The notes beneath the pieces are model-generated. The model saw only the letters and a program-made list of their open reading frames with translations, was not told where the DNA came from and searched no databases. Source: Candidatus Poribacteria bacterium (GTDB lineage: Bacteria; Poribacteria; WGA-4E; GCA-2687025). Taken from it: a stretch of DNA of 38,973 bases. Position 1 is the first letter of the stretch. Each line of letters begins with the position of its first letter. The DNA lies in contig VGLH01000020.1 of the NCBI GenBank assembly GCA_016866785.1, positions 1 through 38,973 of the forward strand, in the 5' to 3' direction. A program made the translations under genes and the position numbers. Positions 2,625-28,377 of this stretch are shown here, in pieces.

Positions 2625-2993
2625 CTAGACGGCTCGGCGGGAGAGCTCCGGTTCGTCGGCGCGCCGCTGAGCCTTCTTCCGGACGACGATCTCCTCGTCG
2701 GGCGCGATCAGACGCAGGGCAGGACGCTTCCCGACCGTCAGCGCCAGACGCGCGATCGTACGGAGCGTGACGTTCGCCTCGCTCTTCATCAGCCGCGTGA
2801 TCCACGACGGCTTGGCGTCGATGCGCTGTGCCAGTTCCGCTTGGGTGATGCCCTCGTTAGCCATCGTCTCCAGGATGTCCGATGTCAAGGACGTATAGAG
2901 CCGCTGCAACCAATAGTCCGAGCTTTGTTCAGCGTCACGTGTCCAGTCTGCCAGTTTCACTTCTGTCTGCCCCTTCAGACGGCAGTAGTCCAC
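2625..2993 (-). CDS. XRE-family helix-turn-helix regulator
   Basis: A 122-residue protein with a Cro/C1-type helix-turn-helix at about residues 40-90; the core ITQAELAQRIDAKPSWITRL shows the two DNA-binding helices. This arrangement is also typical of HigA/MqsA-like antitoxins. No toxin gene is adjacent, so a plain regulator is more likely. The start appears to be GTG at 2991-2993. It begins only 16 bases after the stop of the PduT-like gene on the same strand, so it is probably the last gene of the microcompartment redox operon and may autoregulate it. The C-terminal tail (about 100-122) is highly charged and probably unstructured. Confidence 0.8.
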   Translation of the reverse strand: MDYCRLKGQTEVKLADWTRDAEQSSDYWLQRLYTSLTSDILETMANEGITQAELAQRIDAKPSWITRLMKSEANVTLRTIARLALTVGKRPALRLIAPDEEIVVRKKAQRRADEPELSRRAV

Positions 2994-3009
2994 GACGGCT
3001 GAATCATCG

Positions 3010-3564
3010 TCAGATGATCTCGTTCAGCAGCTCCGGACGCGGGCGGGGGATGACCGTCCGGTTCACCAGCAAACCCTTCGACGCGATGCGCTCTGAGCCG
3101 ACACGCACCGCCGACTCGACGGACGCCACGTCGCCCGTCAGCGTGCAGAACGCTTTGCCGCCCAACGCCATCGCCAGCCGAATCTCGATGAGATCGACAG
3201 CAGCGGCTTTGACGGCGGCGTCGGCGGCTTCCAGCAGCGCCGCGACGCTGAACGACTCCAGCACGCCCAGCGCGTCGAGCGTCGTCGGTGTGTTCGATCC
3301 GGTGATCGCGGGAAAGACGGCGGGATGGATGTTCGTCAGCAGGCAGGTATCGACGAGCGTCCCTTCGGCGCGGAGCACGCCGGCGTCGAGCGCTTCCTTC
3401 GTGTCGCTCACGTTCCCGCCGATGATCGACAGGTACTTGCCCGAGCAGATCGTCCGCGCAACGAGAACCTCGACGGTTCCCGCCTTGAGCATGGCGTCCG
3501 TGACGGCATAGCCAGCCGCGATGCTCGTCAACTCGATGATGCCGATCGCGTTCCGCTCTGCCAT
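3010..3564 (-). CDS. pduT: PduT-like tandem BMC-domain shell protein
   Basis: 184 residues, the same length as Salmonella PduT, with two BMC domains in tandem (about 4-85 and 95-175). PduT-family proteins form shell trimers whose pore holds a [4Fe-4S] cluster through one cysteine per subunit. The equivalent residue is visible here as Cys40 in ARTICSGKYLSIIGG. The C-terminus NRTVIPRPRPELLNEI also matches the family tail. It would pass electrons across a bacterial microcompartment shell. The ATG at 3562-3564 was chosen because homology begins there (MAERNAIGIIEL); the frame extends far upstream inside pduS, but that part is not PduT-like. It lies 29 bases downstream of the PduS-like gene. No shell hexamer, pentamer or signature enzyme is encoded in this window. 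Confidence 0.9.
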   Translation of the reverse strand: MAERNAIGIIELTSIAAGYAVTDAMLKAGTVEVLVARTICSGKYLSIIGGNVSDTKEALDAGVLRAEGTLVDTCLLTNIHPAVFPAITGSNTPTTLDALGVLESFSVAALLEAADAAVKAAAVDLIEIRLAMALGGKAFCTLTGDVASVESAVRVGSERIASKGLLVNRTVIPRPRPELLNEII

Positions 3565-3593
3565 GCCGACCCGCCTTCTCTCGTGCCGCGCGA

Positions 3594-4913
3594 CTAGGCG
3601 ACGATCTCGATGTGTTCCGCCGTGATGCTCCTCACGACGCCGTCGATGCTGCTGTGAACCCGCGCGCCCAGCGCCTTCTCCGGTATCTCCGCGATGGCCT
3701 GCCCGCGACTCACCCGCGCGCCCGCTTCGACGACCGGAACGCTGGGAGCCCCGACGTGCTGCCGCAACGCGATCCGCACGGCGGACGGCTTCCAGTCGAG
3801 CTCCGTCCACGGCGCGGCGACATCGTAAGGCTCCAACCCCAGCTTGCGGATGAGCGATTTCAGCGGGATGTGCCGGCCCTCCGCCATGGCATGAGGCTTG
3901 ATGTCGGGCGACGGGCCCAGCCACCGGTCGAGCTTCGCCTCGCGGCGGTCGGCGCGCGCGCGGTCGCAGGCTTCCTTGGGGAACAGGTCTTCGGGACACG
4001 CGAACTGCGTGCACAAGCCGCACGCGCAGCAAAGGTCCGCCCACTTGCTCCACATCTCCGACCCGCTCATCGTGAACCCCAAGCCGCGCATCACCTTGTG
4101 CGGCTGCACGTCGTAGCCCAGCAGGTAGCGTGGACATAGCTCCGTGCAGTAGGAGCACTGATCGCACGCCGACTTGCCGATCCGCCGCTGAGCGCGCTCC
4201 GGCAGCTCGCGCCGCTGGACGATCCGATGGTCGGCTGGAACCACGAGCAGCCCGCCGGTCGTCTTGGTTACCGGCCCATCGAGGTTCCGCGTGATGGAGC
4301 CCATCATCGTCCCGCCCACGAACGCGGCGTAGTCATCGACGGTGGCTCCTCCAGCGGCGGACAGCAGATCGCGCAAGGGTACCCCGATGGGAGCCTCGAA
4401 GCTCATCGGCGTCCGGACGGCTCCCGCGACGGTGAGCGCCTTCCGCGTGACGGGCTCGCCGTGCGTCGCGCGGAGGATGTTCAGGAGGCTCTCGACGTTG
4501 TGGACGACGCACCCCACCTGCAGCGGGATGCCGCCGGCCGGAATCAGCCTGTCCGTGACGGCGTGGACGAGGACGAACTCGTCGCCCGTCGGGTAGTAGT
4601 CGCCGAGTTGGTGCAGCTCGACGGGCGTTCCAGCGCGCGCTCGTTCCAGCGCCTCGACGGCGTGCGCGTGCTTCGCCTTCAGCCCGACGACGCCCCGCTT
4701 CGCCTTGGTGGCGTCCATGACGAGCCGTACCGCCCGGACGATCTCCGAGGCATGGCGCTCGATGAGCTCGGTATCTTTGTGGAGGAGGGGTTCGCACTCG
4801 GCGCCGTTGGCGATGACGACCTCGACGGTCGCCTCGAGCTTCTTGTGGGCAGGGAACCCAGCGCCCCCTGCGCCGACGACGCCCGCATCCCGCACCTGAT
4901 CGATGATGCTCAT
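3594..4913 (-). CDS. pduS: PduS-like RnfC-domain flavo-iron-sulfur reductase of a microcompartment
   Basis: 439 residues. PduS-type proteins are flavin and Fe-S oxidoreductases that pass electrons from NADH to an acceptor such as cobalamin or out through PduT. A glycine-rich VGAGGAGFP loop (13-21) marks the RnfC/Nqo1-like nucleotide domain. An SLBB-like middle domain follows. There are two ferredoxin clusters: Cys250, 253, 256, 260 (CDQCSYCTELCP) and Cys295, 298, 301, 306 (CCACGLCTQFACP). A barrel-sandwich RnfC-type C-terminal part ends the protein. The ATG at 4911-4913 is preferred over an upstream in-frame start at 4961 because homology begins at MSIIDQVRDAG and the predicted promoter lies between the two. 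Neighbouring pduT argues against a free-standing RnfC. Confidence 0.9.
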   Translation of the reverse strand: MSIIDQVRDAGVVGAGGAGFPAHKKLEATVEVVIANGAECEPLLHKDTELIERHASEIVRAVRLVMDATKAKRGVVGLKAKHAHAVEALERARAGTPVELHQLGDYYPTGDEFVLVHAVTDRLIPAGGIPLQVGCVVHNVESLLNILRATHGEPVTRKALTVAGAVRTPMSFEAPIGVPLRDLLSAAGGATVDDYAAFVGGTMMGSITRNLDGPVTKTTGGLLVVPADHRIVQRRELPERAQRRIGKSACDQCSYCTELCPRYLLGYDVQPHKVMRGLGFTMSGSEMWSKWADLCCACGLCTQFACPEDLFPKEACDRARADRREAKLDRWLGPSPDIKPHAMAEGRHIPLKSLIRKLGLEPYDVAAPWTELDWKPSAVRIALRQHVGAPSVPVVEAGARVSRGQAIAEIPEKALGARVHSSIDGVVRSITAEHIEIVA

Positions 4914-4951
4914 GGACCCCACGCGCAGATGGCTCGGCTCGGACGCCTTCC

Positions 4952-4980
4952 GGTTTAGCACGTCTGGCGCAGGGAGTCAA
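4952..4980 (-). promoter_or_regulatory. Predicted promoter of the pduS-pduT-xre operon
   Basis: The minus strand reads TTGACT (4975-4980), a 17-base spacer, then TAAACC (4952-4957). The -35 is strong (5 of 6) and the -10 weak (3 of 6). Transcription would start near 4945, upstream of the ATG at 4913. Confidence 0.4.
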
Positions 4981-4981
4981 C

Positions 4982-5010
4982 TTGACGAACGGCCATCCGT
5001 TCCGTATAGT
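4982..5010 (+). promoter_or_regulatory. Predicted sigma-70 promoter of the DUF5683-like/lipoprotein genes
   Basis: TTGACG at 4982-4987, exactly 17 bases, then TATAGT at 5005-5010. This is the best plus-strand promoter match noticed in the window. The predicted start near 5017 leaves a 48-base leader before the TTG start at 5065. Confidence 0.65.
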
Positions 5011-5064
5011 CAGAGACGCTGACGATCGTGCCGTGCCGACCCTCTTCGTGGGAACCTGCCTCCC

Positions 5065-5661
5065 TTGACGACCCAGAACGCCAGAAGGCTGCTCACCGCC
5101 ATCTGCCTGATCGCTCTGTGCGCGGGAAACGTCAGCGCGGCGGACCTCACGACGCGGGAGCGGCGACCAGCCCAGGCAACCGAAGCGACGCCAGCAGAGG
5201 AGCTTCCGCGCGACCCGCGGCTCGTCGCGCCCTATACCGCCGTCGTGCGCTCCGCCATCCTGCCCGGTTGGGGTCAGGTGCGCATCCGAGAACGCGTCGA
5301 GGGCGCGGCGTTCTTCGTTGTCACCGCCGGTCTCATGTCGGCATGGTTTGTCTCCTACCGCGATTTCCGCGATCAGTACGACCATGTCTATCTACCCGCC
5401 GTCAAACAGTACGGCGTGACTTCGCGCGAGGCGAACGCCATCTACAGCGACGTCAACGGGCGGTTCAAGGCGAGTCGGCTCTTGCTGTTTTCCGCTCTGG
5501 GCGTTTGGGGGTATAGTCTCATCGATGCTTACGTGGACGCGAACATCTTCAACGCGGAGCTTCGCGCCGAAGAGCTGCTCCGCGAGGGTGAGGAGATTCG
5601 CAAGCTCCAGTTCGAGCTGATGACGAGCGGACCTCGCGTGCGGATTCGTGTGCCATTCTAG
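5065..5661 (+). CDS. DUF5683-like envelope protein
   Basis: 198 residues. A signal peptide (about 1-25, ending GNVSA) is followed by a region with AILPGWGQVRIRERVEGAA, the signature of DUF5683-type proteins. Two hydrophobic stretches follow: about 78-97 and about 135-155 (LLLFSALGVWGYSLIDAYV). The C-terminus is charged with no further membrane segment. The function of the family is unknown; it is seen with cell-envelope genes. The start appears to be TTG; no better in-frame ATG is present. It is probably cotranscribed with the lipoprotein gene 67 bases downstream. Confidence 0.7.
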   Translation: MTTQNARRLLTAICLIALCAGNVSAADLTTRERRPAQATEATPAEELPRDPRLVAPYTAVVRSAILPGWGQVRIRERVEGAAFFVVTAGLMSAWFVSYRDFRDQYDHVYLPAVKQYGVTSREANAIYSDVNGRFKASRLLLFSALGVWGYSLIDAYVDANIFNAELRAEELLREGEEIRKLQFELMTSGPRVRIRVPF

Positions 5662-5728
5662 AGCCGGCTGCTCAGGCGACGGACGACTGCGCCAAGCGGC
5701 GTGCTTGACGGTGTAAGGGGATTGACTG

Positions 5729-6325
5729 ATGAGTAGCGTGCGTAGGTTCCGCTGGCGAGCTCTGGGTGGGCTCGCGAGCATCGCAGTCGCCATCGCGTTC
5801 CTAGGCTGCGGCGATGTCGAGAAACCGGGCGAGCAGGATCCGGTCATCCAAAGCATCAACGCTGTCCTGCGCGACCGGTGGCAGAAAGGCTACATGACGG
5901 AGGACATCGACCTCTACATGTCTGCCTATTGGGCGTCGGGCTTCCTGTATCAGTCCGACATGGGAACCGATTCCGACCCCACCGATGATGTCATCTTCGA
6001 CGACATCACCCTGGAACGCGACTCGGCGATCCGCATCTTCAAGAAGTTCCAGGATATCGAGATCGAGATTTCCGAGCCGCCAGAGGTCAAGCCGCTCAAC
6101 CAAGAGAAGACGCGCTACGAGGTGCGGAACCACTACCGCATCCAGTTTATCGTGTCCGAGGGTGTCCTCGAAGGCGGTTTTACGGGAGCCTATGCCGAGG
6201 GCGACAGCATCTTCATCTTCGAGAAGCGCTTGAACCCGTCTACGGGCAAGGACGAGTGGCGCATCGTCGAGTGGCGCGACGAGTCGTTCACGCCCGACGA
6301 GATCAAAGCCGCCAACAAGCTATAG
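5729..6325 (+). CDS. Putative lipoprotein, possible NTF2-like fold
   Basis: 198 residues with a lipoprotein signal: basic start, hydrophobic core and lipobox FLGC with Cys27 as the acylation site. The mature part is acidic. It contains INAVLRDRWQKGYMTEDIDLYMSAYW near its start and ends with KDEWRIVEWRDESF, the pattern expected at the two ends of SnoaL/NTF2-like domains. The fold call is an inference. The ATG follows AAGGGGA at good spacing. It lies 67 bases after the DUF5683-like gene. It is likely anchored in the periplasm. Confidence 0.75.
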   Translation: MSSVRRFRWRALGGLASIAVAIAFLGCGDVEKPGEQDPVIQSINAVLRDRWQKGYMTEDIDLYMSAYWASGFLYQSDMGTDSDPTDDVIFDDITLERDSAIRIFKKFQDIEIEISEPPEVKPLNQEKTRYEVRNHYRIQFIVSEGVLEGGFTGAYAEGDSIFIFEKRLNPSTGKDEWRIVEWRDESFTPDEIKAANKL

Positions 6326-6355
6326 GCAGCCTCTTACACCCCCAACGTGCGCAAA

Positions 6356-6380
6356 GAGGGCGGGTCATCGACCCGCCCTC
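6356..6380. repeat. 25-base palindrome, copy 1
   Basis: An 11-bp perfect stem (GAGGGCGGGTC with its complement) and a 3-base ATC loop, 30 bases after the lipoprotein stop. An identical copy, loop included, lies at 8491-8515. It could act as a terminator but no T-run follows. Its exact recurrence suggests a REP-like dispersed palindrome. Confidence 0.85.
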
Positions 6381-6419
6381 AGGATATCGGTCGGAAGGCA
6401 GCGGCGTCCCCTCAGTAAC

Positions 6420-6443
6420 GCGGTGTCGCTTGCGCGACACCGC
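6420..6443. other. Perfect 10-bp stem-loop
   Basis: GCGGTGTCGC, loop TTGC, GCGACACCGC. It is the second hairpin in the gap 6326-6598 and lies 39 bases after the palindrome at 6356-6380. No T-run follows. No clear promoter was recognised in the rest of the gap before the gene at 6599. Confidence 0.6.
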
Positions 6444-6598
6444 GGAACACGCGTAGGGATTGAGCCCAACGGAGTGCTGATGTATATGTTGGTGTCCTCG
6501 TCGCACGGTATCTGGGTACTGACACGACATACTGTGTAGATCCTGAGAGCGGCGACCGTGTCCGTGGAGGCGTGCCACTCGCGCTAGGGATGTAGCCA

Positions 6599-7420
6599 AT
6601 GCTGACGGCTCCTCTTCCAGAGTACGGGAGACCGCCTGTTGTCGAGGTCGTCTGTGGGATCGCGTTCGAGCCACTCGACGGTCTGCTCGTGCCGTACCTT
6701 GGCCTGCTATGGGAGACCTTCCGCTCGGACTACCCAATCTGCCGCGAACTTCCTCCCATCGCGAAGATCGTCGAGCGCTTTGGTGGCGAACCGAGCGGGC
6801 CGGAGATGCCAGATATCCGGTCGCCACTTGTTCGGTTCCTGACAAGCGACGAGCAGCGAGTCGTCCAAGTCCAGCGTGATCGGTTCCTCTGCAACTGGAA
6901 GAAGGTTGATGATGCGCAAGCGTATCCACGCTATCCCGCCGTCATCGACTGCTTCCGCCGCAACCTGGATGGGTTCGAGCATTTCCTCGCTTGTAATGGC
7001 TTGGGTGCACTGTCTGCCATCCAGTACGAGCTGACCTACGTCAACCACATCCCGCAAGGTGAGGGATGGACGGGAACGGAGGACATCGACGCGGTGTTCC
7101 CTGCGCTTCACTCGGCGGAGCTCGTAGCGCGCAGCTCTTCCCATCTTGAGGCTGTCAATTGCGGGTTCTCGTTTACGTTGCCTGACATTGACAGCCGTCT
7201 GCGCGTGACATTGGCAAATGCCCGTCGCCGTAACGACAACGTCGACATCCTGAGCCTAGACTTGCTGGTACGAGGACTGCCCAAGGACACGTCTCGCGAG
7301 GCCATGTGGCGCTGGTTCGACACAGCTCACCATGCCATCGTGAAGGTGTTCTCGGAGCTAACGAGCGAGGATGTCCAGAACGAAGTCTGGTACCGGAAAG
7401 GAAGCGTCCGTGCACAATGA
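6599..7420 (+). CDS. TIGR04255 family protein
   Basis: 273 residues. The N-terminus (YGRPPVVEVVCGIAFEPL), the central YPRYPAVIDCFRRNLDGFEHF and the C-terminal WFDTAHHAIVKVFSELTSED match my memory of the TIGR04255 family. Those are sporadically distributed proteins of unknown function, often on mobile or accessory DNA. No signal peptide or membrane helix is seen. The ATG has AGGGAT upstream. The next gene overlaps its end by about 11 bases, so the three genes 6599-8419 are one operon. Whether it takes part in the toxin-antitoxin pair downstream is an open inference. Confidence 0.75.
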   Translation: MLTAPLPEYGRPPVVEVVCGIAFEPLDGLLVPYLGLLWETFRSDYPICRELPPIAKIVERFGGEPSGPEMPDIRSPLVRFLTSDEQRVVQVQRDRFLCNWKKVDDAQAYPRYPAVIDCFRRNLDGFEHFLACNGLGALSAIQYELTYVNHIPQGEGWTGTEDIDAVFPALHSAELVARSSSHLEAVNCGFSFTLPDIDSRLRVTLANARRRNDNVDILSLDLLVRGLPKDTSREAMWRWFDTAHHAIVKVFSELTSEDVQNEVWYRKGSVRAQ

Positions 7421-25120: not shown

Positions 25121-26194
25121 TCAGTCCAACGCGCGGACGTAAACGGCTCCCAGGTTCGTCCGCAGCTCGACGCGGGGTCCCCCGCCGTTCACGGACATCT
25201 GAAGGGAACGCCCCGAACCCTCCGGGCGTTGCCAGTCTGTCGAGATGGTTCCGAGATTCGTCGATGCCGACAGGTCGAACCCCGCGTTGCGAGGGAGCCG
25301 TGCCTCCACAGCGCCCATCGACGTCGTCGCCGTCAAGGGGGCGTCCAGCTCCTGCCGCACCGTGACCTCGATTGCGCCGCTGCTGGTATCGAGCGACGTC
25401 GGAGCAGCGATCCTCGGTGTGCGCACCGCGATGGCTCCACGTCGAGTCGTCGCTTCGAACTTGGCATCAATCCCGTCGGAGATGTCGATCTCGATCGCCC
25501 CGTTCTCCGTCGAGACGACCGTCTCGCCCTCGATCCGCGCCACCGATACGCGGACAGAGCCGTTCTTCGTCCGAGCCGATCCGACCGCGTCAACTTCGTC
25601 GAGCTGCAGCGCTCCGTTGTGAGTCAAGGCATCGACAGAGCCTTGGACATCGCGCATCTCGATTGCGCCGTTGTGCGTCAACGCGTCAATGGACCCGCGA
25701 ACGTCGGTCACGTCAATCGCGCCGTTCCGCGTCTCGAGATCCGCGTCCGCCCGGATGCCCGCGACGCGGATCCCGCCGTTGTCGGAATCGGCAACGACGT
25801 TGAGCTCTTCGGGAACCATCACGCGGTAGTCCATCGTCAATTGGCGGATGTGTGCAGATGTGCTTCCGCCCGGTATCGGCGTGTCGATGGTGAGGCGGCT
25901 TCCGTCGCGGCTGATCTTCGGCACGAAGCTCTGCGCGTAGTCGTATCCGCTATCCTCGTCGTCCGACCGAACGGTTCGCCTGGCTTCGATGCCGATCGAG
26001 CCGCTGTCCCAAGCCTCGACCCGAATCCCGCCGTTGCTGGTGTGGATGGTCAGCGACGCGATCCCAGACGGGCTCTCGTCGTAGGTCAGCGTGTCCTCCC
26101 AGCGATGGCTGCCACGCCCGACGGATACGACGCACCCGAGAATCCCCCACGAAAGCATGAGCACGACTCCTAGCGACAGCATGGCGCGCTGCAT
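25121..26194 (-). CDS. DUF4097 lipoprotein, beta-solenoid
   Basis: 357 residues. A lipobox (GILGC, Cys21) makes it a lipoprotein. The mature part is a beta-solenoid of about 20-residue rungs with at least twelve repeats, each turning at a loop of the type TRNGAI, THNGAL, TENGAI, TSSGAI or TNLGTI. This is the DUF4097 adhesin-like family, of unknown function. It starts 4 bases after the previous DUF4097 gene, so the two are cotranscribed. The ATG has AGGAGCG upstream. It probably faces the periplasm or surface. Confidence 0.88.
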   Translation of the reverse strand: MQRAMLSLGVVLMLSWGILGCVVSVGRGSHRWEDTLTYDESPSGIASLTIHTSNGGIRVEAWDSGSIGIEARRTVRSDDEDSGYDYAQSFVPKISRDGSRLTIDTPIPGGSTSAHIRQLTMDYRVMVPEELNVVADSDNGGIRVAGIRADADLETRNGAIDVTDVRGSIDALTHNGAIEMRDVQGSVDALTHNGALQLDEVDAVGSARTKNGSVRVSVARIEGETVVSTENGAIEIDISDGIDAKFEATTRRGAIAVRTPRIAAPTSLDTSSGAIEVTVRQELDAPLTATTSMGAVEARLPRNAGFDLSASTNLGTISTDWQRPEGSGRSLQMSVNGGGPRVELRTNLGAVYVRALD

Positions 26195-26198
26195 CGGA

Positions 26199-27929
26199 CT
26201 ACGCTCCTGTACGGCGATGGATCGTGATGTCGCCGCACGCCGTGTGGACGATCAAGGCGGCACCGCCGCCGCCCAGGCTGGCGATGAGGCGCGAACTCCC
26301 GTCCTCGGACACCGATGGAGCTTCGAGCCCCTCGACGTGGATGCTCCCGTCATCGCTCGTCGCGTCGAGATCGACGCCCAGCGATGCTGGCAGTTCGACC
26401 CGGATGCTGCCGTCGTCGGCACGCAGCCGGACCTCGCGGTCGACGCGCTCGCGAACCTCCGCGACGATCTCGCCGCTCCCGGACTCGACGTTCAGCGATC
26501 CGACGCTTCGGCACTGGACGCGAACACTCCCGTCGTCCGACCGGACTCGGAGCTCGTCCGAAACCGCATCGACCTGCGCCTCGACGGTCCCGCAGCCGGT
26601 GCGGAGCTCCATCTGCCGCCCAGACCCAAGGGCGACCCGCAGGCTTCCGTCGTCCGCAACCGCGCGGATCGAGTCGGCGACCTTGGCAAGGTTCGCCTCG
26701 ATCGTGCCGGAACCTGTGTGCGCCGCAAACCCTTGCGCCGATACGACCGTCGCCCGAATGGATCCATCGTCCGTGGATACGTCCGTCTCACCGGAGCACT
26801 CCGCCATCGTCAGCTCGACGTTCCCAGAACCTGTATGAACCCTCGCGGACGCGACCGACCGGAGGCGAACGCGTATCCGGCCGTCGTCGCTGCGCACGTC
26901 CGCGACCGCTTCGGGCGTTGACTCCGCATTGAGCGCGACGTCGCCGGAACCCGTCGCGATGGCGATCTCCCCGCTCCATGTCCCGCCGGAGACCGTTACG
27001 GGCCCGTCGCCGGTAGACAACCGAGCCGAACCGCCGCAATCACGGAGCACGATAGGCCCGTCGCCGGTCTCCGCGTCGATCTCCGATTGGACTCCCACGA
27101 GCGCGATGGGCCCGTCGCCGGTGCGGACTCGCACGCGCTCATAGGTTCCGCGTAGCTCGACGGCTCCGTCGCCAGTCTCCAGCTCCGCCTCGTTCGCCGA
27201 GCACTCTTGAAGGGCGACCGCGCCGTCGCCGGTGCGGATAGTGAACACATCGCCCTGGACTTTGCTGAGGGAGATAGGTCCGTCCCCAGTCGAGAGCGCG
27301 ACGTTGAGCGCTCGCAGGCCGCGCACTTCGATGGATCCCTCATTGGACTCTACGTCGAGATGGCAGCCGTCGCGTATCCGAACTTGCGCGTTCGACCGGT
27401 ACTCGGCGCGGACACCGGCGTCGTCCCTGTGGATGTGCGCTCCGGGAGAGAAATGGACCATCTCGTCGCCGGAACCCAATACGGCGACCGGCGCATCGTC
27501 CTGGTGAACGCGTACGCGCACACCTGCATCGATGCTCATGCCGCTCGCCCCCGAGCGCTCCGCGTCGACGGATCGCCCGTGCCTGCGGTCGAAGCCCACA
27601 TGACGCCCCCGATGGATCGACCTCTCCAGCGTCTTGGCATGACCGGCAGCGCTCCTCGCGGTTGACAGTGCGTCGGAAACCGCCGTCATGACGGTCGTGA
27701 CGATGGCGTTGGCGAGATCGTCGGGTCGAGCTCCAGACGTGTCCGACGCTGGCTCCGGCGGTTCGCGGTCGCGGAGTGCCCGAAGGAGCGCCTCCGCTTC
27801 GTCCGCTCCGATCTTCCCGGCAGCCAGCATCTCAAGCACCTGACGCGTCGGGCTCGGTTCTTCCCGATGATCCATCTCGTCCACTTCCTCGTCCACTTCT
27901 TGCCTCGCCTCGTTGGTGTTCTCCGACAT
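26199..27929 (-). CDS. DUF4097 beta-solenoid protein with SHOCT-like N-terminus
   Basis: 576 residues from the ATG at 27927-27929, chosen for GGAGG 5 bases upstream; a second ATG at 27939-27941 is less well placed. An acidic N-terminus leads to a short helical motif VLEMLAAGKIGADEAEALL (31-49), as in YvlB-like proteins. The rest is a solenoid of about 19 rungs. The first turns read TGDG six times in a row; then TGSG and DDG loops alternate strictly for ten rungs. No signal peptide or membrane segment is seen, unlike its neighbour. Function unknown. It lies 34 bases after the DUF2089 regulator gene. Confidence 0.88.
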   Translation of the reverse strand: MSENTNEARQEVDEEVDEMDHREEPSPTRQVLEMLAAGKIGADEAEALLRALRDREPPEPASDTSGARPDDLANAIVTTVMTAVSDALSTARSAAGHAKTLERSIHRGRHVGFDRRHGRSVDAERSGASGMSIDAGVRVRVHQDDAPVAVLGSGDEMVHFSPGAHIHRDDAGVRAEYRSNAQVRIRDGCHLDVESNEGSIEVRGLRALNVALSTGDGPISLSKVQGDVFTIRTGDGAVALQECSANEAELETGDGAVELRGTYERVRVRTGDGPIALVGVQSEIDAETGDGPIVLRDCGGSARLSTGDGPVTVSGGTWSGEIAIATGSGDVALNAESTPEAVADVRSDDGRIRVRLRSVASARVHTGSGNVELTMAECSGETDVSTDDGSIRATVVSAQGFAAHTGSGTIEANLAKVADSIRAVADDGSLRVALGSGRQMELRTGCGTVEAQVDAVSDELRVRSDDGSVRVQCRSVGSLNVESGSGEIVAEVRERVDREVRLRADDGSIRVELPASLGVDLDATSDDGSIHVEGLEAPSVSEDGSSRLIASLGGGGAALIVHTACGDITIHRRTGA

Positions 27930-27963
27930 GGTTGCCTCCATGTTCGCTTCGACGGACTGCTGC

Positions 27964-28377
27964 TCAGAGCTTTCGGATGGCTTCGACGGCGTCGTTCGCA
28001 GTGATCTCGCCGCGCTGGAGCCGGTCGAGGATCTCGCTGCGCTGCCGCTGCACCCGAGCATCCGTCGAGCCAGTCTGCGGAGCCGGATCAGTGGGTTCAT
28101 CGGAGCCCTCTCCCTCGAAGCCCATCTCGTTGATGACGGCGTTGAGCCGGTTCCTCAGCGCCGTGTAGGCAACACCCGATTCGCGCTCCATCTCCTTCAG
28201 GTTCCCCCGGTTCTGGACGAACCGCTCCAGGAACTCGAGGCTCTCCTCCGAGAGCCGGCAGAACCGCGACGCGACGAAGGTTCCACGCACCTCCGTGTCG
28301 CAGTCCGGGCAGTGAATCACCGTGATCGTCAGTTCCGTGTTCCCGCACGCCGGACATCGTTCGATGATCTTTCTCAT
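27964..28377 (-). CDS. DUF2089 zinc-ribbon/HTH regulator
   Basis: 137 residues. Four cysteines (8, 11, 23, 26 in CPACG and CPDCD) form a zinc ribbon. A helix-turn-helix follows with the family signature FLERFVQNRGNLKEMERESG and YTALRNRLNAVI. The C-terminus (113-137, SEILDRLQRGEITANDAVEAI) repeats the SHOCT-like pattern found at the start of the DUF4097 protein next door. DUF2089 genes commonly accompany DUF4097 genes, so it likely controls this operon. The ATG at 28375-28377 has GAGGGG upstream and a promoter immediately before it. Confidence 0.9.
   Translation of the reverse strand: MRKIIERCPACGNTELTITVIHCPDCDTEVRGTFVASRFCRLSEESLEFLERFVQNRGNLKEMERESGVAYTALRNRLNAVINEMGFEGEGSDEPTDPAPQTGSTDARVQRQRSEILDRLQRGEITANDAVEAIRKL

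Follow-up and report, generated by a model that had tools for sequence, protein, structure and literature searches.

The window analysed here is the whole contig VGLH01000020.1 (38,973 nucleotides; assembly GCA_016866785.1), contig C20 in the 4.35-Mb genome of a Candidatus Poribacteria bacterium. Its minus strand carries three genes in tandem, separated by gaps of 34 bp and then 4 bp, for a DUF2089 protein, a soluble DUF4097 (Toastrack) protein and a DUF4097 protein bearing a lipobox. The first gene (27964..28377) encodes a putative regulator of 137 amino acids, in which Pfam matches and the alignment with relatives delimit a zinc ribbon (residues 8-40; PF22747, 38.7 bits), a helix-turn-helix (HTH; residues 42-88; PF09862, 63.5 bits) and a weak SHOCT-like C-terminus (residues 113-132). 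The zinc ribbon and the HTH both score above the Pfam curated cut-offs, and the HTH segment lies at 28114..28254 (PF09862 match of 65.5 bits). The second gene (26199..27929) encodes a protein of 576 amino acids with Asp-Gly turns, matching DUF4097 (PF13349) with 120.6 bits and, at 27762..27845, the SHOCT-like helical hairpin PF22746 with 27.4 bits (2.5e-06), barely above the cut-off of 27. Its start is most likely the ATG at 27929, preceded at five bases by GGAGG in the 34-bp gap (27930..27963), rather than the start of the longest open reading frame at 28100, which falls within the DUF2089 gene. The third gene (25121..26194) encodes 357 amino acids with Asn-Gly turns and scores 39.9 bits, so that both solenoid proteins pass the PF13349 cut-off of 22.9. 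The first-pass annotation, made from the DNA letters, had described one operon with a DUF2089 protein, a soluble Asp-Gly DUF4097 protein and an Asn-Gly lipoprotein, and the frames, which were confirmed at their coordinates, the Pfam matches and the turn counts agree with it.

The two solenoid proteins are predicted to differ in their destination, as the same annotation had stated. Signal peptides and lipoboxes were called throughout by a pattern and hydrophobicity script, which detected no hydrophobic N-terminus in the middle protein. The third protein begins with MQRAMLSLGVVLMLSWGILGC and matches a PROSITE-type lipobox pattern; its predicted signal peptide (26132..26194) contains the lipobox ILGC, with Cys 21 as the residue predicted to be lipidated. 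An Lgt enzyme (PF01790, 149.1 bits), which lipoprotein formation requires, is encoded in the same genome on contig C81, beside a paralogous DUF2089 locus. With a signal peptide, a lipobox and Lgt in the genome, the third gene product is apparently a bacterial lipoprotein, a prediction made from sequence.

Single-sequence AlphaFold2 modelling of the middle protein (mean pLDDT, the predicted confidence per residue, of 76.7) gave a regular strand-rich solenoid after a set of helices, with pLDDT block means of 90-98 over residues 211-510, and the model of the lipobox-bearing protein is confident in its middle part only. The main turns are spaced by 18-21 residues, and among the matches to the motif X-G-x-[VILFAM]-x-[VILFAM] the residue X is Asp in 12 of 25 for the middle protein and Asn in 7 of 16 for the third. 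By the turn-motif scan the Asp-Gly protein is built of two zones. The first (27000..27290) has six TGDG turns, starting at residues 216, 235, 254, 272, 290 and 308; in the second (26343..26954) G[SC]G and DDG turns alternate and the series closes on two DDG. This description omits motif matches lying about ten residues off the ladder (e.g., 299, 319 and 476). In the third protein the ladder reads SDNG, TRNG, THNG, THNG, TKNG and TENG (25496..25786). Sequence searches against PDB chains reached chance level only (best E of 0.76 for the soluble protein and 0.053 for the DUF2089 alignment) and Foldseek found nothing significant for the soluble-protein model (best E of 0.10). For the lipobox-bearing model the best Foldseek matches included the putative adhesins 3ljy, 3pet and 4opw, with 4qrk at rank 13, all with E > 0.001; Ravi et al. 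cite 4qrk and 4opw as Toastrack structures (PMC11237479).

The linkage of the genes was examined in a sample of 84 genomes of the phylum, where DUF2089 occurs in 32 genomes (25 above the cut-off) and DUF4097 in 73. Counting the window, 34 DUF2089 matches in the phylum are above the cut-off, and a Toastrack gene lies downstream within about 6.5 kb in 17 of them; four of the other 17 have less than 1.6 kb of sequence left. Over all sources, 141 distinct DUF2089 loci were scored: a same-strand Toastrack gene follows downstream at 92, two or three such genes at 29, and the figure is 80 of 114 where 3 kb or more of sequence lies downstream. At 90 of the 92 loci the first Toastrack is at most 1 kb from DUF2089. 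The pair was seen in named records from Poribacteria, Latescibacterota, Gemmatimonadota, Chloroflexi, Spirochaetales and several Bacillota. The DUF2089-Toastrack linkage is thus clearly conserved. The first-pass annotation had proposed co-occurrence of the trio in other genomes as a check; since the linkage is conserved in other genomes, the linkage half of its own test does not refute its proposal.

Neighbourhoods of this kind are already in print. The main text of PMC11237479 (Ravi et al. 2024) describes neighbourhoods that combine DUF2089, Toastrack and SHOCT-like domains as PSP/Lia-like, places a SHOCT-like hairpin on DUF2089, proposes a membrane-stress regulatory role for the DUF2089 context and suggests that docking to Toastrack may act on transcription via fused or associated HTH domains. 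The window operon shares with them a DUF2089 protein (zinc ribbon and HTH, here with a sub-threshold SHOCT-like end) adjoining a same-strand Toastrack gene and a SHOCT-like hairpin on the Toastrack protein, but it has three genes, no PspC or other multi-span membrane protein, and a second Toastrack that is a predicted lipoprotein. We consider it rather likely that the operon is a regulatory module for membrane stress, of the DUF2089-Toastrack kind already published, pairing a cytoplasmic with an exported Toastrack. The gene content, the domains, the tight spacing and the conserved linkage are observed directly. The envelope-sensing system of the first-pass annotation accordingly stands, as regards an envelope-stress role, as the best-supported guess, and falls as an undescribed kind; because such neighbourhoods were already published, its phrase "not described for this group" can be kept at most for this phylum. 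The word Poribacteria is absent from the main text of PMC11237479, to which our check applied, and a literature search on Poribacteria and envelope stress returned nothing beyond oil-reservoir work.

In such a module, DUF2089 would be a zinc-ribbon HTH transcription factor controlling its own operon. The cytoplasmic SHOCT-Toastrack protein would bind DUF2089 or the inner leaflet via the SHOCT-like hairpins apparently common to both proteins, and its solenoid would serve as a docking platform, so that binding of damaged membrane or another partner alters DUF2089 activity. The Toastrack predicted to be lipid-anchored may be an effector or a sensor, expressed under the same control and exposed on the membrane's outer side. 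This model requires no contact between the two solenoids, and their differing turn residues would stop both surfaces from binding the same partner or from co-assembling.

Comparison with the better known systems gives the same mixture of likeness and difference. Like LiaX-LiaY-LiaZ of Enterococcus and YvlB-YvlC-YvlD of Bacillus, the operon includes a PF13349 protein with a helical N-terminal part, and relatives of the operon have holin-4 and, in one case, PspC; unlike them, the window genome has no PspC or holin-4 match. Holin-4 and PspC are reported as partner types of B. subtilis YvlB (yvlBCD) and enterococcal LiaX (liaXYZ), and interactions of YvlB with PspA and LiaH have been reported (PMC9239133). 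A LiaX identity was rejected (the two proteins score 20.9 and 39.6 bits where NCBIfam NF038025 requires 350), as was that of LiaG of Bacillus (NF049997, 64.4 and 49.4 against 285); LiaG resembles the lipobox-bearing protein in its Toastrack domain and in membrane anchoring, which is predicted for the latter, but the window operon lacks LiaFSR genes. Two PspA matches are present in the window genome. A same-strand holin-4 gene (YvlD/LiaZ type) lies no more than 2 kb from the last Toastrack in 14 of the 92 Toastrack operons; this count was obtained with a home-made profile and includes the six seeds from which it was built. None of the 14 operons is poribacterial. The four holin-4 genes run against Pfam were confirmed (PF04020), as was one PspC gene. 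The order at L144 (Bacillota) is DUF2089, a SHOCT-bearing frame, a short frame, a SHOCT-Toastrack, a lipoprotein Toastrack and then directly holin-4.

Several observations weigh against a membrane-stress module. The SHOCT-like match at the C-terminus of the window DUF2089 reaches 12.6 bits, below the cut-off of 27, and aligns with the same stretch in relatives. No downstream Toastrack is found at 49 of the 141 DUF2089 loci, and for 34 of these 3 kb or more of sequence was available. In the phylum, the Toastrack-less loci belong to a short form of DUF2089 in one family and to a second subfamily in another, apart from a single additional locus. DUF2089 genes have also been reported in leaderless bacteriocin clusters, which means that the family is not bound to a membrane-stress role alone. 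The search of the window genome gave no PspC and no holin-4/YvlD match, and no multi-span membrane protein is encoded in the operon. The in-operon partners of the published variants (LiaI-LiaF-TM, PspC, B-box or a sigma factor) are absent from the three genes, PspC being the one among them for which the whole genome was searched; such partners are common and not obligatory. The lack of a kinase or multi-span membrane partner would also suit a different explanation, in which both solenoids are structural or adhesive envelope proteins (a periplasmic scaffold, for example) and DUF2089 only sets their dosage, with no stress sensing, and it fits this explanation that the structures nearest to the lipobox-bearing model were deposited as putative adhesins or lipid-binding proteins. 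We find it unlikely, given the SHOCT-like hairpin of the soluble protein and its lack of an export signal, the internal Fis-type HTH of a relative and the linkage of such operons to holin-4 and PspC elsewhere.

The pairing of the two Toastrack types and natural fusions count in favour of the module reading. By the hydrophobicity script, a SHOCT-bearing Toastrack without export signal and an exported Toastrack occur together at eleven loci: the window, seven in Poribacteria (L068, L069, L072, L073, L079, L082 and L089) and three in Bacillota (L144 and L149, titled Halobacteroidaceae, and L155, titled Bacillota) that belong to one order. The exported Toastrack has a lipobox in four of the eleven, namely the window and the three Bacillota. 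Ravi et al. argue for an intracellular Toastrack (PMC11237479), and the copies predicted to be exported do not fit that view. The locus L089, on contig C20 of genome G008 from the window's own family, comprises DUF2089 and three Toastrack genes, and one product (4729-6936) contains a Fis-type HTH (PF02954, 38.8 bits) between a SHOCT-like hairpin and the Toastrack, an arrangement that speaks for a solenoid that is cytoplasmic and linked to DNA in this relative; a pattern for this HTH had no match in the other 131 scored Toastracks. At L078 (G018:C120, 4121-5389), a DUF2089 zinc ribbon and HTH are fused to a sigma-54 activator AAA+ domain (188.7 bits), with a sub-threshold SHOCT-like stretch in between, and this fusion supports DUF2089 as a transcription regulator; its DUF2089 belongs to the Toastrack-less poribacterial subfamily. 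PspF, which regulates the classical psp operon, is likewise an activator of NtrC type that carries a Fis-type HTH (PMC11237479), and the two fusions agree with the idea of Ravi et al. that Toastrack docking may affect transcription.

Some further loci were observed beside these. In genome G010 (L100) the last two Toastracks begin with a hydrophobic stretch and the contig stops before any DUF2089. In four loci of the Toastrack-less poribacterial subfamily (L076, L077, L078 and L080), nearby genes, partly in tandem, encode predicted lipoproteins of about 200 residues. The second DUF2089 locus of the window genome (L009; G000:C81:8000-16000, 2846-4603) encodes, besides DUF2089, a protein that is SHOCT-only and a SHOCT-Toastrack whose turns are Gly-Gly, and is convergent with lgt and an Omp85-type gene. 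It resembles the window operon in having SHOCT-like proteins and a SHOCT-Toastrack after DUF2089 and differs from it by the SHOCT-only protein, the Gly-Gly turns and the lack of an exported Toastrack.

The turn residues were compared across the scored Toastracks, and a dominant residue before the turn Gly was found in 121 of 132: Asn in 68, Ser in 20, Gly in 15, His in 10, Ala in 6 and Asp in 2. Within operons with several Toastracks the dominant residues mostly differ, as with Asp, His and Asn in G008, His, Asn and Gly in one poribacterial family, or Asn with Ser or Ala in Bacillota; the exception is Asn with Asn in the three lipobox-bearing Bacillota of one order. Taking one operon per DUF2089 cluster at 70% identity (13 operons), 1 of 17 pairs matched against 4.3 expected by shuffling (p 0.013); the values were 1 of 11 against 2.8 at 60% (7 operons, p 0.087) and 0 of 2 against 0.3 at 50% (2 operons, p 0.67). 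The excess of differing residues among co-operonic Toastracks is at most suggestive because the clusters remain related, and an obligatory difference is ruled out by the Asn/Asn loci and the non-significance at 60% and 50% clustering. Asn, Gly and His turns are present in SHOCT-bearing and in exported Toastracks alike, which rules out turn chemistry as a marker of compartment. The first-pass annotation had further suggested that the solenoids might be partners across a membrane; this found no support, as the operon has no multi-span membrane protein, the genome has no PspC or holin-4, and turn chemistry does not simply track compartment.

What the ladders do, if anything, can be explained in several ways. 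Internal repeats homogenise through duplication, and it is quite possible, though short of probable, that the differences in turn residue arose only because repeats expanded separately in the two paralogues and have no function. With Asn dominant in 68 of the 121 Toastracks, well ahead of any other residue, the difference is in part ancestry, and the clade pairing Asn with Asn and the loss of significance with 7 or 2 clusters point the same way; the deficit of matching pairs among the 13 clusters and the fact that orthologues retain their turn type while other positions drop to 27-35% identity speak against it. This retention was examined in L089 and L100, orthologues from two other genera, whose zones are similar to those of the window soluble protein with small departures. 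In the three-way alignment, the loop Asp was kept in 12 of 12 and 11 of 11 positions, whereas Asp residues elsewhere were kept in 15 of 39 and 6 of 31 cases and the remaining positions at 28% and 27%, bearing in mind that repeat proteins align turn on turn in any register. Conserved loop Asp, together with the uniform Asp ladders and His-rich ladders found among operons of the same family, would also be expected if the turns bound metal ions (Asp divalent ones such as calcium or magnesium, His transition metals) and the operon sensed ions or metal stress, not membrane damage. We judge this quite improbable: Asn, Ser, Gly or Ala turns, poor metal ligands, dominate in 109 of the 121 Toastracks, the pair of His type keeps just four of eight loop His (for the Asn type only three loop Asn were comparable), and Asp before Gly is a common turn residue. 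Two poribacterial genomes in which the search gave no DUF2089 also carry Asp-Gly-rich Toastracks, at L066 (G061:C133) and L044 (G001:C213), which means that the Asp ladder is not confined to the operon type of the window. Finally, we put forward as a speculation, with the odds against it, that in DUF2089 operons the ladders (Asp or His, then Asn, then Gly, Ser or Ala) constitute an identity code, which would direct each solenoid to its own partner or to itself and prevent cross-assembly of cytoplasmic and exported copies, giving two insulated sensors of one fold on either side of the membrane.

The operon is flanked by a DUF5916 gene downstream and a divergent ACT-domain gene upstream. A promoter scan of the operon gave no site and a terminator scan one terminator-like site, against 1.7 expected. 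The 220 bp upstream of the window DUF2089 gave no perfect inverted repeat when arms from 6 to 11 and gaps of at most 12 were allowed, and the 220-bp upstream regions of six poribacterial DUF2089 genes share no 9-base word common to more than two. By eye, TTGACA with a TATAAT-like box 17 bases on was seen upstream of DUF2089 at L101, L084, L086 and L088; the window operon differs.

The DUF2089-Toastrack kind of neighbourhood was published before; the features of most interest here are the second solenoid, predicted to be exported, the ladders of turn residues and the two fusions with HTH or activator domains. Toastrack is a poorly understood part of bacterial membrane-stress systems, one of which governs enterococcal tolerance to daptomycin and bacteriocins. 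The pairs of cytoplasmic and exported Toastracks, each with its own ladder, and the natural fusions provide concrete constructs with which to test whether the domain controls transcription directly and on which side of the membrane it acts.

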